Of a stretch of 25,785 nt of DNA, positions 2,028-5,609 are shown one piece after another. The stretch is taken from the IMG/VR virus record IMGVR_UViG_3300025151_000262, positions 1-25,785 of that record; one strand, written 5' to 3'. A program made the translations under genes and the position numbers. Numbering within the stretch: position 1 is the stretch's first letter; each line of letters opens with the position of its first letter. Below the pieces are notes generated by a model. It was not told where the DNA came from. It did not search any database and saw only the letters and a program-made list of their open reading frames with translations. This DNA is from a virus.

Positions 2028-2210
2028 TTATGGAGTGAATGTATCCTTATTGTCAACCTCACCGCTACCATCACAGTTCCAGCAAGTATCTTCAAACTCT
2101 TCTTCGTAACCAATATCGCGATTGAAACTTTGGCGTTTGTATCTGCGATAGGTTACAGTGCCATCGCCCAGACATTCTGGGCAAGCGACAGGCTCAGTAC
2201 GGTATTTCAT
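2028..2210 (-). CDS. DnaJ-type zinc-finger miniprotein
   Basis: A 60-aa protein consisting almost entirely of one DnaJ-like cysteine-rich unit. It has C10-PE-C13-LGDG near the N-terminus and C43-WN-C46-DGSGEV near the C-terminus, the CxxCxGxG repeats that bind one zinc in DnaJ central domains. There is no J domain or substrate domain. The ATG at 2210 was preferred to an upstream ATG at 2252 because AGGAG lies seven bases before it. It overlaps the upstream gene by 17 nt. Such free-standing zinc fingers are common in phage early regions, with roles that are mostly unknown; protein or nucleic-acid binding is possible. Confidence 0.75.
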   Translation of the reverse strand: MKYRTEPVACPECLGDGTVTYRRYKRQSFNRDIGYEEEFEDTCWNCDGSGEVDNKDTFTP

Positions 2211-2394
2211 CGTCAATCTCCTGTGGTAGATGTTTGCGTTCCCATGCTGCAATAGCTCTGCTTAGAAACTTCTCACGATTGAAGCGTGGGTTTTCTTTCT
2301 CAAGGTCATCGGCAATCATTTCGATTGTGATTGGTGAGTTGACTAGCGGACCCATACGATCCGCTATCCATTCAAAGTTCTTGCGTGTCATCAT
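2194..2394 (-). CDS. Hypothetical 66-aa protein
   Basis: Starting MMTRKNFEWIADRMGPL, this acidic, mostly helical protein has no motif I can name. The start at 2394 is the ATG in a TAATG junction with the upstream stop codon, and a GGAGG box eight bases earlier confirms it. It resembles small unknown proteins common in phage early operons (NFEWIA opening, C-terminal AIAAWERKHL). Position between another small unknown and a zinc-finger gene gives no functional clue. Confidence 0.7.
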   Translation of the reverse strand: MMTRKNFEWIADRMGPLVNSPITIEMIADDLEKENPRFNREKFLSRAIAAWERKHLPQEIDDEIPY

Positions 2395-2636
2395 TAGCCA
2401 GTCCTCCAAAAACGAATTTGATCATGTTTTTTGCCATGTTCTGACCTCATGATTGTTTTACTTTTGTAAAGAATGCCTACTTTTCTTGCGACAGCATGAA
2501 GTTGTTGACGGTGTTTGCCTGTTACTACAAAGCTATCACCTATTTCCATTTGCTCCATAGTAAGTAATAACTTGCCCTTATCAGGGCCTCGCGTACTACC
2601 TTCAGGAATTGGTATATTTTTTTCTATTTTAAACAT
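2394..2636 (-). CDS. Hypothetical 80-aa protein
   Basis: The ATG at 2636 (MFKIEKNIPIPEGSTRGPDKGK) is preferred to ATGs at 2663 and 2651 because AGGAG lies seven bases before it. The protein has a beta-rich look: an IPIPEG segment, then MEIGDSFVV, then a basic helix RQQLHAVARKVG and a final IRFWR strand. This arrangement is often seen in small phage proteins of unknown function, with a basic helix that could contact nucleic acid. It follows the DUF932 gene after 11 nt and shares a TAATG junction with the next gene. Confidence 0.7.
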   Translation of the reverse strand: MFKIEKNIPIPEGSTRGPDKGKLLLTMEQMEIGDSFVVTGKHRQQLHAVARKVGILYKSKTIMRSEHGKKHDQIRFWRTG

Positions 2637-2647
2637 GGGTGTTCTCC

Positions 2648-3478
2648 TCATAATGTTTCCCACTGTCTTGATTTCATTGCGCTGGCAATCTGTAGCTCAC
2701 GATTGTACTTGGCAATCTCTGGTTTGCGCAGGTCTTTTGTATGCGTGGCCCAGTAAGTTAGGCAGTTGTACAATGCCCACTTGTTAGAGCCGAGAGCGCT
2801 GCGCTCGTTGTTCCAGATTCCGAGCAGGTTTTCGAGTTGCTTTTCGTTGGTCTTGGTGACTGACTGCTGGCGTGTGAATGCTTTGCAGACAGTCTTTTTG
2901 AAAAAGTTTTCGACTTGTTCCTGTTGGAGTTTGGTGTGCATCCAATCTTGCCAGACATCTTTGCGTGACATGAAGTGACTGAAGCCATTGACTACCTTGG
3001 CTGCTGATCCTTCTACGTTGATAGATGCAGTATGCTTGTATCTGCTTCTGGCTACTGTGTCGGCTGTTGTGCAGCCGTTCAGACACCATAGTCGTAAGCC
3101 ATTGGCTTGCTGAGAAAAGGACCAAGATGCGTCATAGCTATTGAAGAAGCTGACACGGAACTTAACATAGTCTCCGACTGCTGGCTCAACTGTGAGGTCA
3201 TTAAATAATATTTCACCTCTGAGTTTGCGTCCGTCTTCAAGCACATCGACAGTGACTTCATAATCGTCCGATAAGTCTGCCGACTTCACTCCGTCAACGA
3301 TTGAGTTCACCACATCATCGTGCGTTACAATCTTGTAGCGTGAGCCGTGTACGCCCAACACCTGATCGGTGTCGGTACGCACAACAGCTTGGTGACCAGC
3401 AATGATATTGCCAAGCTGATCATACACTGGTTGCTGTTCGACTGGAAAATCGAAGTCATTTATTGAAAAATGTTTCAT
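2648..3478 (-). CDS. DUF932 family protein
   Basis: A 276-aa protein matching the DUF932 (phage/plasmid-like) pattern. An N-terminal region ends in LGVHGSRYKIVTHDDVVNSI, a central region has YVKFRVSFFNSYDASWSF and the diagnostic LRLWCLNGC, and a helical C-terminal half follows. The family is widespread in phages and plasmids and its biochemical function is not established; it is often beside recombination or single-strand annealing genes, which fits the nucleases downstream here. The start overlaps the previous stop as TAATG, with GGAGA before it. It is the largest gene of the leftward arm and is probably expressed from the promoter at 3697-3725. Confidence 0.85.
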   Translation of the reverse strand: MKHFSINDFDFPVEQQPVYDQLGNIIAGHQAVVRTDTDQVLGVHGSRYKIVTHDDVVNSIVDGVKSADLSDDYEVTVDVLEDGRKLRGEILFNDLTVEPAVGDYVKFRVSFFNSYDASWSFSQQANGLRLWCLNGCTTADTVARSRYKHTASINVEGSAAKVVNGFSHFMSRKDVWQDWMHTKLQQEQVENFFKKTVCKAFTRQQSVTKTNEKQLENLLGIWNNERSALGSNKWALYNCLTYWATHTKDLRKPEIAKYNRELQIASAMKSRQWETL

Positions 3479-3669
3479 TATTTTTCTCCGATTAGTTTTG
3501 CATTTACTTCATGAAAAGTATTGGCGATTTGCTGCAGTGCAAAAGGTCGTTCACAATCATCAATAGATTTTGAATGTAGTTTCAAAAACTCGCAGATGAG
3601 TTTTATTTCGTCTGCAACGAACATAATAGAGACAGGTAGTTCGTCGTAATCAATGTAGTTGAGTTTCAT
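3478..3669 (-). CDS. Hypothetical 63-aa protein
   Basis: Acidic helical protein (MKLNYIDYDELPVSIMFVADEI) with no known motif. A strong AGGAGAACACAA site precedes the ATG at 3669. This is the first well-supported gene after the repressible promoter at 3697-3725, whose predicted transcript would start roughly 20 nt upstream of it, so it is likely the leading gene of the early transcript. The gene ends in a TAATG junction with DUF932. Confidence 0.7.
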   Translation of the reverse strand: MKLNYIDYDELPVSIMFVADEIKLICEFLKLHSKSIDDCERPFALQQIANTFHEVNAKLIGEK

Positions 3670-3854
3670 TTGTGTTCTCCTTTGGTTATGCCCTGCATTA
3701 TTGCAGTGACAATAGTTATTGTCAGTAGTGACGTTACGTCATTTTGATTTTTTGTTTTCGTTTTGATGTGGGTGCATGCAGCAACTGCGCTGCACATACT
3801 CACAGTCAAAGCGTGTCCTGCAACTTCTACTCTGTGATGTTTAGAGTGAAGCAA
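3666..3854 (-). CDS. Doubtful 62-aa ORF with a Prp-like GHA...C motif
   Basis: The frame opens at a TTG (3854) with no ribosome site. Its N-terminal third reads HHRVEVAGHALTVSMCSAVA, which recalls the GHA...VCAAVSA catalytic His/Cys signature of Prp cysteine proteases, although the His-to-Cys spacing is shorter than in Prp. The C-terminal half coincides exactly with a promoter and two palindromic operators, and looks non-protein-like (Thr/Ile/Lys-rich). It shares an ATGA junction with the next gene. I cannot decide between a small protease-like gene with an embedded promoter and a chance frame in an intergenic region. Confidence 0.25.
   Translation of the reverse strand: MLHSKHHRVEVAGHALTVSMCSAVAACTHIKTKTKNQNDVTSLLTITIVTAIMQGITKGEHK
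3697..3725 (-). promoter_or_regulatory. Sigma70-like leftward early promoter
   Basis: On the minus strand a CTGACA -35 box (3725-3720) is followed by exactly 17 bases and an AATAAT -10 box (3702-3697), each five of six to consensus. It points at the 63-aa and DUF932 genes. A palindrome covers the -35 and most of the spacer, and a second palindrome lies three bases upstream of the -35, so it is probably strongly regulated. Confidence 0.6.
3707..3724. promoter_or_regulatory. Palindromic operator TGACAATA-GT-TATTGTCA
   Basis: Perfect 8-base inverted arms around a 2-base centre, lying over the -35 box and spacer of the leftward promoter. That placement would let a dimeric repressor block RNA polymerase. 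The Cro-sized XRE or HTH proteins encoded in this arm are candidate ligands (inference). Confidence 0.5.
3729..3741. promoter_or_regulatory. Palindromic site TGACGTTACGTCA
   Basis: Perfect 6-base arms around one base, three bases upstream of the leftward -35 box. Near-identical sites occur at 5013-5025 and 5035-5047 by a rightward -35 box, so it is likely the binding site of a common regulator. Confidence 0.55.
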
Positions 3855-3876
3855 AGTAAAGGGGGCCGAAGCCCCC
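3852..3876 (-). terminator. Rho-independent-type terminator after the 140-aa gene
   Basis: On the minus strand GGGGGC-TTCG-GCCCCC forms a 6-bp GC stem with a UUCG tetraloop, followed by TTTACTTTG. It begins six bases after the stop codon of the 140-aa gene. The U-tract is interrupted, so efficiency is uncertain. Confidence 0.75.
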
Positions 3877-3881
3877 AGAGG

Positions 3882-4304
3882 TTAGCTTGCTAGAAGTTTG
3901 TCGATAGCTGCGATCTCGCCAAGTCCATCTGAAGCGTGTGTGCGCTTAGGCTTGCGTGACCAGACCTCGCCCTGAGTAATCTCTGTGTAAACTTCGCAGT
4001 CTGCTCTATGTCGCTCTTGAAGTTCGAGTAGCTCTTCTTCCATTTTGTTGTAGAGTGACCGTTTCTTGGCAATCTTGATGTCAATTACCTCGGCATCAGG
4101 GTTCTCTCTACGCCAAGCTGCAATCTCGTTTTTGATCTCTGACATTTGATCTGATTTCCACTCGATAGAGTTGAAGCTGGTGTAGCAAGCGTCACGGGCA
4201 ATGCTTATGCGAAGATATTCATTTTCGTCACCTTTGTGGAAGTTTATAATAGCGACCTTGGCTTGAACTAGGTCTTTGTAAGAAGTGATGTTCTGCTTTG
4301 TCAT
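3882..4304 (-). CDS. Hypothetical 140-aa coiled-coil protein
   Basis: Unrecognised soluble protein. The middle and C-terminal parts are charged and helical: MSEIKNEIAAWRRENPDAEVID followed by a likely coiled coil, SLYNKMEEELLELQERHRAD, at about residues 83-105, then a Ser/Lys-rich tail ending in IDKLLAS. No catalytic motif or membrane segment. The start has GGAG eight bases upstream and is preceded by a leader with three short hairpins. It is the first gene of the leftward arm and ends at a strong terminator, so it forms its own transcription unit. A decayed inverted copy sits at 4551-4975 on the other strand. The retained integrity of this copy against the decayed one argues that it is the functional one. 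Confidence 0.75.
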   Translation of the reverse strand: MTKQNITSYKDLVQAKVAIINFHKGDENEYLRISIARDACYTSFNSIEWKSDQMSEIKNEIAAWRRENPDAEVIDIKIAKKRSLYNKMEEELLELQERHRADCEVYTEITQGEVWSRKPKRTHASDGLGEIAAIDKLLAS

Positions 4305-4325
4305 ATCTTAGTCTCCATTGTGATG

Positions 4326-4389
4326 TGCGAGGACCACCCTCGCAACGACGACTCCATGCACGGAGACAAATCCTGCCCCCCAGGGCAGG
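4326..4389 (-). promoter_or_regulatory. Structured leader of the 140-aa gene: three consecutive hairpins
   Basis: Reading towards the gene: CCTGCCC/GGGCAGG with a 4-base loop (4389-4372), CTCC/GGAG (4365-4352) and TGCGAGG/CCTCGCA with a 5-base loop (4344-4326), ending ten bases before the ribosome site. In the other arm of the inverted repeat the first hairpin is missing and the third is degraded. A post-transcriptional control leader is possible but unproven. Confidence 0.45.
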
Positions 4390-4550
4390 TTGCTATTCGC
4401 AAGTTGTTTCCCCACAAGGAAAAGGTCGAACTGCACACTGACAGGAGCCAGAGATACCTAGATATGAGCGGCAAAAGGAAACTGCTTGCGAATGGTATTT
4501 GGCCCGTGCAATGGACAAAGACGTGCGAGGTGGGCCGAAGCCAGCACACT

Positions 4551-4975
4551 GGAGACGCCAAGACGTGACAAACAGATCAGCGCTTTGAAACAAAGAGCTA
4601 GTTCAAGACAAGGGCGCCTTTTAGTATGCTTACACTTTTAGAAAGGTGACAAAATGAATACGCATAAGTATGGCACGGGACGCGGCTGCGCCAGCTTCGG
4701 CTATAGCGGGTGGAAATCAGATGTCAGAGTCAAAACAGGTTGTAGCTTGGATAGAGAGGTTCTGGATGCTGAGGTGATTGATAGAGAGATTGTTAAGATG
4801 TCGCTATGCAACTGGAAGAGAGCCGAACTTCATGAGGGGCATAGACAGAGTGCAAGTTTACCAGAATTACTAGGGTGAGCTGGACACCAAGCCTAACGCC
4901 ACACATTCAGATGACTGGCTAGATTGCTGCTCGACACGCTTCTGGTAAGACTTGCCTCTGTGCTTCGGTACCCTT
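4551..4975 (+). pseudogene. Decayed inverted copy of the 140-aa gene
   Basis: Plus-strand sequence aligning over the whole length of the 140-aa gene, from its GGAGAC ribosome-site region to its terminator. The equivalent of the ATG is GTG at 4565, and frameshifting 1- and 4-nt gaps occur throughout (for example TCAGATCAAATGTCAGAG in the intact gene is TCAGATGTCAGAG here). A 74-codon frame from an internal ATG at 4654 survives and preserves WKSD and DAEVID, with compensating shifts between them, before losing the parental frame after GHRQS. In one hand-aligned block (4825 onward) 33 of 39 columns match. It could still encode the 74-aa peptide, since AAAGGTGACAAA precedes that ATG, but decay is the simplest reading. 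Confidence 0.65.
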
Positions 4976-5012
4976 TTCTTGGCGTAACGTGTCAAGCCAT
5001 TAAATGCACAAG

Positions 5013-5025
5013 TGACGCAACGTCA
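5013..5025. promoter_or_regulatory. Palindromic site TGACGCAACGTCA
   Basis: 5-base inverted arms (TGACG/CGTCA) around CAA. One member of a site family with 3729-3741 and 5035-5047. Its start is 22 bases before that of the next copy, about two helical turns, so both would lie on the same DNA face. Confidence 0.55.
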
Positions 5026-5034
5026 TTTACAAAG

Positions 5035-5047
5035 TGACGCAACGTAA
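5035..5047. promoter_or_regulatory. Degenerate palindromic site TGACGCAACGTAA
   Basis: One mismatch from the copy at 5013. It ends four bases before the TTGACA box at 5052, mirroring the position of 3729-3741 relative to the leftward promoter. Confidence 0.5.
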
Positions 5048-5051
5048 CGTA

Positions 5052-5082
5052 TTGACACAGAGTTAGAAAATAGTGTCGTAAT
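5052..5082 (+). promoter_or_regulatory. Candidate rightward promoter
   Basis: A perfect TTGACA -35 (5052-5057) lies four bases after a palindromic operator. The best -10 is CGTAAT (5077-5082, four of six to consensus) at a long 19-base spacing, so it may need an activator. It would drive the small terminase gene. Confidence 0.4.
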
Positions 5083-5105
5083 GGGGGGAGAGAGGGAGAG
5101 GGGGG
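5083..5105 (+). other. 23-base pure purine tract
   Basis: Uninterrupted G/A run beginning and ending with six Gs and containing a central GGG. It could form triplex or G-quadruplex structure, act as an exaggerated ribosome site for the 18-codon frame at 5113, or mark a packaging signal. Nothing distinguishes these. Confidence 0.4.
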
Positions 5106-5112
5106 CTAGTCA

Positions 5113-5169
5113 ATGGAGTTAGCTAAACGAAACCCTAATCCAAACTTAGAAACTGACGTCACGGTGTAA
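5113..5169 (+). CDS. Possible 18-aa leader peptide
   Basis: ATG at 5113 opens MELAKRNPNPNLETDVTV and stops at 5169. The end of a G-rich purine tract lies seven bases upstream and could serve as ribosome site. It overlaps the iteron-like repeats, so it may be a chance frame. No function can be assigned. Confidence 0.2.
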   Translation: MELAKRNPNPNLETDVTV

Positions 5170-5234
5170 GCTAAGAGTTAGTAAACAGCAGTTAGCTAAA
5201 TGCTGCTTGCACCACTAAGAAAGAAGGTTGTGAT

Positions 5235-5609
5235 ATGCTTCCAGCAGATAGAAAGCTGACTGATAAACAGATAGCTTTGGTAGATACACTCGTAGCAGAA
5301 GGGCTGAGTATAAAAGATGCAGCTAGCAAAGCTGGATATGCTGAGGGCGAGAGTGGAAGAGTAAGCGCACACAGAGCATTGAAAGCCCCACATGTGCAGC
5401 AGTACATGGCGCAAAGGATGAATGAGACATTTGGACTGAGCGCTACGAGTGCGCTGGCTACAGTTCGTAGGCTATCTTCGAGTGCTAAGTCTGAGTATGT
5501 TCAGCTAGAAGCGAGCAAGGATTTATTGGATAGGGCTGGCTATAAACCGATAGATCGTTCACAGGTGCAAGTTGCAGGAGATATTAAGGTTTCTATTGAC
5601 CTGACGTAA
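5235..5609 (+). CDS. Small terminase subunit
   Basis: A 124-aa protein with the N-terminal DNA-binding layout of phage small terminases: LTDKQIALVDTLVAEGLSIKDAASKAGYAE (helix-turn-helix, residues 8-37), then a helix RVSAHRALKAPHVQQYMAQRM and a central helical oligomerisation region rich in Ala/Leu. The C-terminal strand region (QVQVAGDIKVSIDL) would contact the large subunit. Role: rings that recognise the packaging start on concatemeric phage DNA and stimulate the large terminase. The start has AGAAGG seven bases upstream. It is the first confident rightward gene after the strand switch and is followed by a hairpin with a T-tract. Confidence 0.85.
   Translation: MLPADRKLTDKQIALVDTLVAEGLSIKDAASKAGYAEGESGRVSAHRALKAPHVQQYMAQRMNETFGLSATSALATVRRLSSSAKSEYVQLEASKDLLDRAGYKPIDRSQVQVAGDIKVSIDLT

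Follow-up and report, generated by a model that had tools for sequence, protein, structure and literature searches.

A phage gene mirrored in a 1.1-kb inverted repeat at the early/late divergence: a probable plus-strand RNA rod kept by compensatory change

Just upstream of the small terminase gene of a marine podovirus-like phage, a whole gene with its leader and terminator is mirrored in an imperfect inverted repeat of about 1.1 kb, which raises the question of whether this symmetry is the remnant of a duplication or a structure that is kept by selection. The window, that is, the whole stretch of DNA that was analysed (25,785 nucleotides, positions 1 to 25,785 of IMG/VR record IMGVR_UViG_3300025151_000262), encodes a RecE/YqaJ-type exonuclease at its left end and, further right, terS (5235-5609), terL (7807), the portal (9627) and the major capsid protein (12724). 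Among isolates, Pelagibacter phage EXVC031P Hodr comes closest (portal 62%, TerL 66%). A complete-looking relative with direct end repeats (G001, made up of L138 and L139; 32,561 bases) has two main transcription blocks, leftward early and rightward late, which converge near 1.6 kb and diverge at this locus; the repeat is therefore placed at the early/late divergence. The features of the locus, in window coordinates, are as follows.

3697..3725, minus strand: CTGACA-17-AATAAT, promoter-like site (10/12 matches) for the rest of the leftward early operon
3727..3744, no strand assigned: palindromic site TGACGTTACGTCA, putative regulator site, adjoining the leftward promoter-like site; direct repeat families D1/D3
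3851..4411, plus strand: predicted 5′ (left) arm of the rod, the antisense strand of the whole 140-aa gene unit, leader and terminator included; RNAfold pairs and RNAalifold consensus rod
3861..3876, minus strand: intrinsic terminator of the leftward 140-aa gene, GGGGGCTTCGGCCCCC + TTTACTTT, at the outer end of the rod
3882..4304, minus strand: gene for a 140-aa protein, function unassigned, predicted all-helical with two long helices
4412..4476, plus strand: fast-evolving apical part of the rod, bordered by a GTTTCC/GGAAAC stem (4395-4411/4477-4493)
4477..5007, plus strand: 3′ (right) arm of the predicted rod, non-coding, pairing with the left arm; marked by frameshifts and stops in relatives, compensatory changes and plus-strand G.U bias
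5010..5047, no strand assigned: two copies of AAGTGACGCAACGT, adjoining the rightward late promoter-like site; direct repeats D1, similar sites in relatives
5052..5057, plus strand: TTGACA, found in all aligned relatives; putative −35 box of the late promoter preceding terS
5083..5105, plus strand: purine tract GGGGGGAGAGAGGGAGAGGGGGG, shortly 3′ of TTGACA, conserved upstream of terS in the relatives examined
5235..5609, plus strand: terminase small subunit gene terS, first gene of the late operon (PHROG 2538, E 6.5e-16)

The original prediction, made from the single sequence, had placed an inverted repeat at 3855-4980 with its centre near 4444. Alignment of 3801-4444 with the reverse complement of 4445-5060 gave 447 identities in 542 aligned columns (82%) with 87 gap bases, and the score was 1357 compared to 439 ± 26 (maximum 534) in 200 dinucleotide shuffles; under stringent scoring the arms reached 302 and the shuffles 21 ± 2. 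Identity between the left arm (3851-4411) and the reverse-complemented right arm (4477-5007) is 82%. A scan of all possible centres showed that 3851-5007 is the single large inverted repeat of the window (strict score 302; median 21), and a repeat search showed that the longest repeat arms fall in reverse order about one centre. Folding of the plus strand of 3830-5010 by RNAfold predicted a long, essentially unbranched rod of −640 kcal/mol (z −32) with 436 inter-arm pairs, the outermost at 3851/5007 and the innermost at 4411/4477, in which about 79% of the bases are paired; the minus strand of the same interval gave −529 (z −18). The predicted repeat was thus confirmed in its extent and centre, as was the proposal that the whole gene unit is mirrored; the rod spans the unit of the leftward gene from leader through terminator. 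Terminators had also been claimed on both sides: the left one (minus strand, 3876-3861) is a good intrinsic terminator, but its mirror in the right arm is degenerate. A terminator-like stem was seen at the equivalent place in relatives, and the rod ends at the terminator of the gene in several clades.

The two arms differ in what they encode. The dN/dS values of the 140-aa gene in the window and close relatives (0.11-0.28) indicate that the leftward ORF is a real protein under purifying selection; the left arm of the rod is the antisense of this functional gene. An AF2 model of the protein was all-helical (pLDDT 87.6). The protein had no match in Pfam or PHROGs, Foldseek returned nothing from the PDB at E ≤ 0.001 and only uncharacterised phage proteins in the top region of BFVD, and neither bacterial genomes nor isolate phages yielded a homologue of the gene. 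The right arm was rejected as a protein gene, because frame-breaking indels and stops were present in all clades read and the mismatches were spread evenly over codon positions; its 74-aa ORF (4654-4878) was not conserved in relatives.

The same palindrome was found in related phages. Five IMG/VR relatives of the 140-aa protein, from five different metagenomes, have all kept the repeat in the same place (5/5). A protein-profile search yielded 27 further loci, with strong repeats in the closer ones, and a TerL search showed that the top inverted repeat lies directly upstream of terS in many more phages. In some more distant relatives the rods were weak or absent, implying that the rod is not essential across the whole family. 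Within complete-looking relative contigs the repeat is internal, DNA-encoded at a fixed locus. One candidate relative found by an 18-mer (L008) was rejected as a chance match in an unrelated phage. The contigs of relatives (L013-L092) end rather often, in 10 of 45 cases, within about 300 nt of terS, which may be due either to difficulties in assembling the rod or to a physical end of the genome.

Cross-comparison of 16 phages showed that each right arm best matches its own left arm, or ties with that of a near-identical sister; between clades the arm matches drop to background, yet every phage in this comparison has its own repeat. RNAalifold, applied to a plain MAFFT alignment of six phages, returned a single unbranched rod of 378 pairs, 59 of which were changed on both sides, so that an unbranched fold of about 1 kb is given by the consensus as well as by RNAfold of the window. 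The number of double-changed cells that keep the pair was 111, compared to 43.8 ± 4.9 in shuffled data (reached in 0 of 500) and 6-20 when partners were slid by 1-3 columns. As a structure read from an alignment favours itself, a transferred-pairing test was used, in which the pairing is taken from one sequence and the arms are aligned independently; it superseded counts made by re-aligning the arms of each phage, which overstate compensation. The results showed that double changes kept rather than broke pairs at ratios of 23:5 (L004 to L005), 14:1 (L005 to L006), 9:1 (L104 to L107, where single-sided changes at paired sites also kept the pair in 10/10), 28:15 (window to L005) and 46:13 (L110 to L105, with 6-10 kept and 28-43 not in the slid controls). 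The slid controls mostly pointed in the opposite direction, with more pairs broken than kept. Double-sided pair-keeping changes therefore exceed both the shuffled and the slid controls. Bulges were conserved as well: the window and L005 share 29 of 44 bulge positions (expected 5), these being one-base bulges between compensated pairs, and the window and the more distant L105 share 15 (expected 6). The spacing of the interruptions was also considered as a means of avoiding RNase III. Its regularity was weak in the clade of the window (run-length variance P 0.03-0.08), slight or absent in L104-L113 and strong only in Hodr, and the idea was set aside owing to the weak signal in the clade of the window.

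The mismatches indicate which strand is selected. Among isolated mismatches pooled from ten groups, 183 are G.U on the plus strand and 8 on the minus strand, and G + U make up about 82% of the bases at these sites, though the arms are nearly balanced; counting all mismatches, the plus:minus ratio of G.U was 61:2 in L112 and 52:2 in L113. A cross-clade null gave a plus-strand G.U fraction of 0.65 (about 65:35) with a 99th percentile of 0.85. With a skew this far beyond the null, the plus strand is the one selected. Taken with the compensatory changes, these data make it very likely that 3851-5007 forms a long hairpin and that selection acts on its pairing in the plus strand. In the window alone, the energy gap between plus and minus strand (−95) lies only about 2 sd past late-gene control windows (−44 ± 26). 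The strand asymmetry differs by mismatch type, from 23:1 for G.U through 8:1 for G.G and 5:1 for U.U to 1.3:1 for G.A, and this order (GU>>GG>UU>GA) tracks RNA energies and not DNA energies; for the raw mismatch counts, the correlation with DNA energies is at least as good as that with RNA energies. The energy comparison favours RNA over single-stranded DNA as the selected molecule, which is suggestive but not decisive.

The best reading, which we regard as probable, is that the locus encodes a selected, unbranched plus-strand RNA rod of about 1.15 kb whose 5′ arm is antisense to an early gene. If a plus-strand hairpin is indeed selected, it is likely that the molecule is RNA, forming an unbranched rod of about 1.15 kb with about 436 arm-to-arm pairs, the 3′ arm being a dedicated non-coding partner. 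How such a rod might work can be outlined as follows. Rightward transcription entering the locus, for example late read-through round a circular genome, would produce the antisense of the whole transcript of the gene. The right arm would fold this antisense back on itself into a bulged, self-contained rod that is not paired with the mRNA of the gene, so that antisense attack on the mRNA would be prevented, or allowed only when wanted, and the rod would determine the moment at which the early gene is silenced or spared during the change from early to late expression. This antisense-folding function is possible, though clearly short of even odds and only slightly ahead of the decoy considered below. 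The fact that the rod ends at the terminator of the gene counts in its favour, because the idea predicts it; the two-operon map of G001, which leaves only read-through or antisense transcription as a source of the 5′ arm, counts against the RNA rod reading as a whole. The putative plus-strand transcript is the weakest point of that reading, because the search to the left of the rod gave no conserved promoter for the plus strand.

Several other explanations were weighed against this reading. That the repeat is an assembly or amplification chimera might be suspected of a contig from a metagenome assembly; however, the arms are only 82% alike and the same structure recurs in assemblies made independently, as well as in complete-looking contigs that carry end repeats, so that an artefact, which the original prediction had already argued against, is scarcely conceivable and was rejected. 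The original prediction had regarded the right copy as decayed and its divergence as ongoing. A neutral, decaying inverted duplication would account for the frame-broken, non-coding right arm and for the Hodr clade, where changes mostly break pairs, above all in terS, but it leaves unexplained the persistence of the repeat over large divergence and the compensatory changes and G.U polarity in the clade of the window and its nearest relatives; it is refuted for the clade of the window by the transferred-pairing test and is overall hardly credible. The right arm has lost its frame, but its pairing was kept by compensatory changes, and the arms co-evolve rather than drift apart. Hairpin-templated correction is known for quasi-palindromes, and gene conversion or template switching between the arms, with no selection on pairing, would make the arms track each other. 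Compensated pairs are nevertheless scattered singly between conserved 1-nt bulges (the 29 of 44 shared positions), so that conversion tracts would need to be shorter than the bulge spacing, and mismatches become G.U on one strand only; such mutational upkeep is strongly disfavoured and very unlikely. The original prediction had also offered a relic of terminal hairpin or origin recombination, for which nothing was found, and a functional structure, an option that the conserved pairing supports. Two results go beyond what the single sequence could tell, namely the recurrence of the symmetry at the same locus in relatives with different sequences and the plus-strand G.U signature.

The remaining alternatives accept selection on the hairpin. 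It is improbable that a promoter in the loop drives a separate rightward RNA of the right arm, which would pair in trans with the antisense RNA of the gene or with the template DNA strand: the leader and a terminator-like sequence are mirrored and the same G.U polarity would be expected, but no rightward promoter was found within the loop in the window, the right terminator is degenerate and a contiguous rod in cis is simpler. Slightly less improbable, but still unlikely, is a strand-specific hairpin in single-stranded plus-strand DNA, formed in replication, packaging or injection, in which G.T pairs are tolerated. The locus adjoins terS, where packaging sites often sit, and the missing plus-strand RNA promoter, the rank of the raw mismatch frequencies with DNA energies and the 10 of 45 contigs ending near terS would all fit; against it, the G.U:A.C ratio of 183:8 exceeds that of G.G:C.C and G.A is barely favoured over C.U (56:43), unlike DNA energies, and the structure covers a transcription unit, with the leader and terminator of the gene inside. 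A rod might instead serve as a sequence-independent dsRNA decoy that soaks up a dsRNA binder of the host or its defences (RNase III or an immune sensor), the antisense being merely the historical source of one arm. This has an appreciable, though minor, chance of being correct, as the structure is kept while the sequence turns over completely between clades, rod strength differs among phages as in an arms race, and immune triggering by structured RNAs of phage terminase genes is already documented (cabRNA, PMC10686824). A decoy does not, however, predict that the rod ends at the terminator of the gene, nor does it give a reason for one arm to stay antisense of a gene under purifying selection.

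A comparable repeat is present at the same locus, with unrelated sequence, in Hodr and nine IMG/VR relatives.

L011:9292-10290 (record about 11.8-12.8 kb): inverted repeat of Hodr, reaching into the terS coding sequence

The outer part of this repeat scores about 12 sd above shuffles, and the complementarity between the arm and terS coding sequence is far above shuffles. Under transferred pairing, however, double changes in the Hodr clade kept 9 pairs and broke 8, with none kept within terS in that comparison; most changes break pairs, above all within terS, and the clade has no clear G.U bias. On these comparisons the Hodr repeat is real but its selection is unproven, and the claim of a covarying pairing between its arm and the terS coding region was dropped.

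Known rod RNAs of kilobase length include viroid-like, HDV-like and Obelisk replicons and the eukaryotic hpRNAs; none was found described within a DNA phage genome. A self-cleaving ribozyme is present in HDV and part of the Obelisks; no Rfam ribozyme was found up to E 5 in 3500-5400 or at gathering score in eight relatives, and no sign of an RNA replicon was seen at the phage rod locus. Eukaryotic hpRNAs are born by inverted duplication of their target genes, have an arm antisense to the gene and co-evolve between arms by compensatory changes, which makes them the nearest analogue of the phage rod in evolutionary logic, with a gene-derived, antisense hairpin arm; phage and bacterium, however, have no Dicer/Argonaute siRNA pathway of that kind, and in the phage the gene itself is one arm. 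The terminal hairpins and telRL sites of protelomerase systems are also palindromes in phage DNA, but these are short and near-perfect, whereas the phage repeat is 1.1 kb long, 18% mismatched, with conserved bulges and a one-strand G.U polarity, and lies at an internal position rather than at a genome end. Obelisks form an unbranched RNA rod of about 1 kb with 68-72% of bases paired, and share with HDV-like replicons and the phage rod the length and lack of branching, a single protein ORF and a sequence far more variable than the shape (PMC13096302). In contrast to these autonomous circular RNAs, which have no DNA counterpart, the phage rod is encoded at a fixed locus in a DNA genome, has its ORF on the strand that forms the less stable rod and pairs the antisense of the ORF with a non-coding arm, not within the ORF. 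GOLLD, ROOL and OLE are likewise very large structured non-coding RNAs, some of them in phages, and are ornate and homo-oligomeric (PMC12286853); Rfam covariance models of these and others gave no match to the phage rod in the window region or eight relatives. The cabRNA of staphylococcal phages is a structured RNA of the terminase region that triggers CBASS, but it is about 400 nt long, lies inside terS/terL and folds into several hairpins, without a 1-kb rod or a mirrored gene (PMC10686824). A search of open-access PMC papers for phage kilobase hairpin RNA found none.

We know of no phage or bacterial class like this rod. It could, tentatively and at somewhat less than even chances, represent a new class of phage regulatory element, in which the antisense strand of a gene is one arm of a kilobase RNA rod and the other arm a dedicated non-coding 'anti-antisense' kept complementary by continuous compensatory evolution. 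Such an element would sit at the early/late switch in a widespread lineage of marine podoviruses and would be hpRNA-like, though in a bacterial virus. Pairing would tie the gene to its antisense and to a further complementary partner, so that changes in the gene, mostly at third codon positions, tend to draw matching changes in the other arm. In genes of this kind synonymous sites should not be treated as neutral, and inverted copies in phage genomes that look decayed may be structural RNAs. The locus raises the questions of what role long dsRNA plays in bacterial infection and how it escapes RNase III, and of whether cis antisense folding serves phages as a timer of the early-to-late switch.

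The flanks of the rod carry further elements. The early operon at 2028-3478 includes genes for a DUF932 protein (PF06067, 2648-3478) and a DnaJ-like zinc-finger protein (2028-2252). Sites like TGACGTTACGTCA, including the AAGTGACGCAACGT copies, lie by both the leftward and the rightward promoter-like sites and are predicted to be, probably, binding sites of a shared phage regulator. The rod loop (apical region) of L113 holds a direct repeat of TATGCGAGCTTGTCTCGCTCAATCAAA. The purine tract GGGGGGAGAGAGGGAGAGGGGGG could be the initial transcribed region of the late promoter, or a triplex or packaging signal. In L112 and L113 the tract is a perfect mirror repeat (GGGGGGAACACAAGGGGGG).
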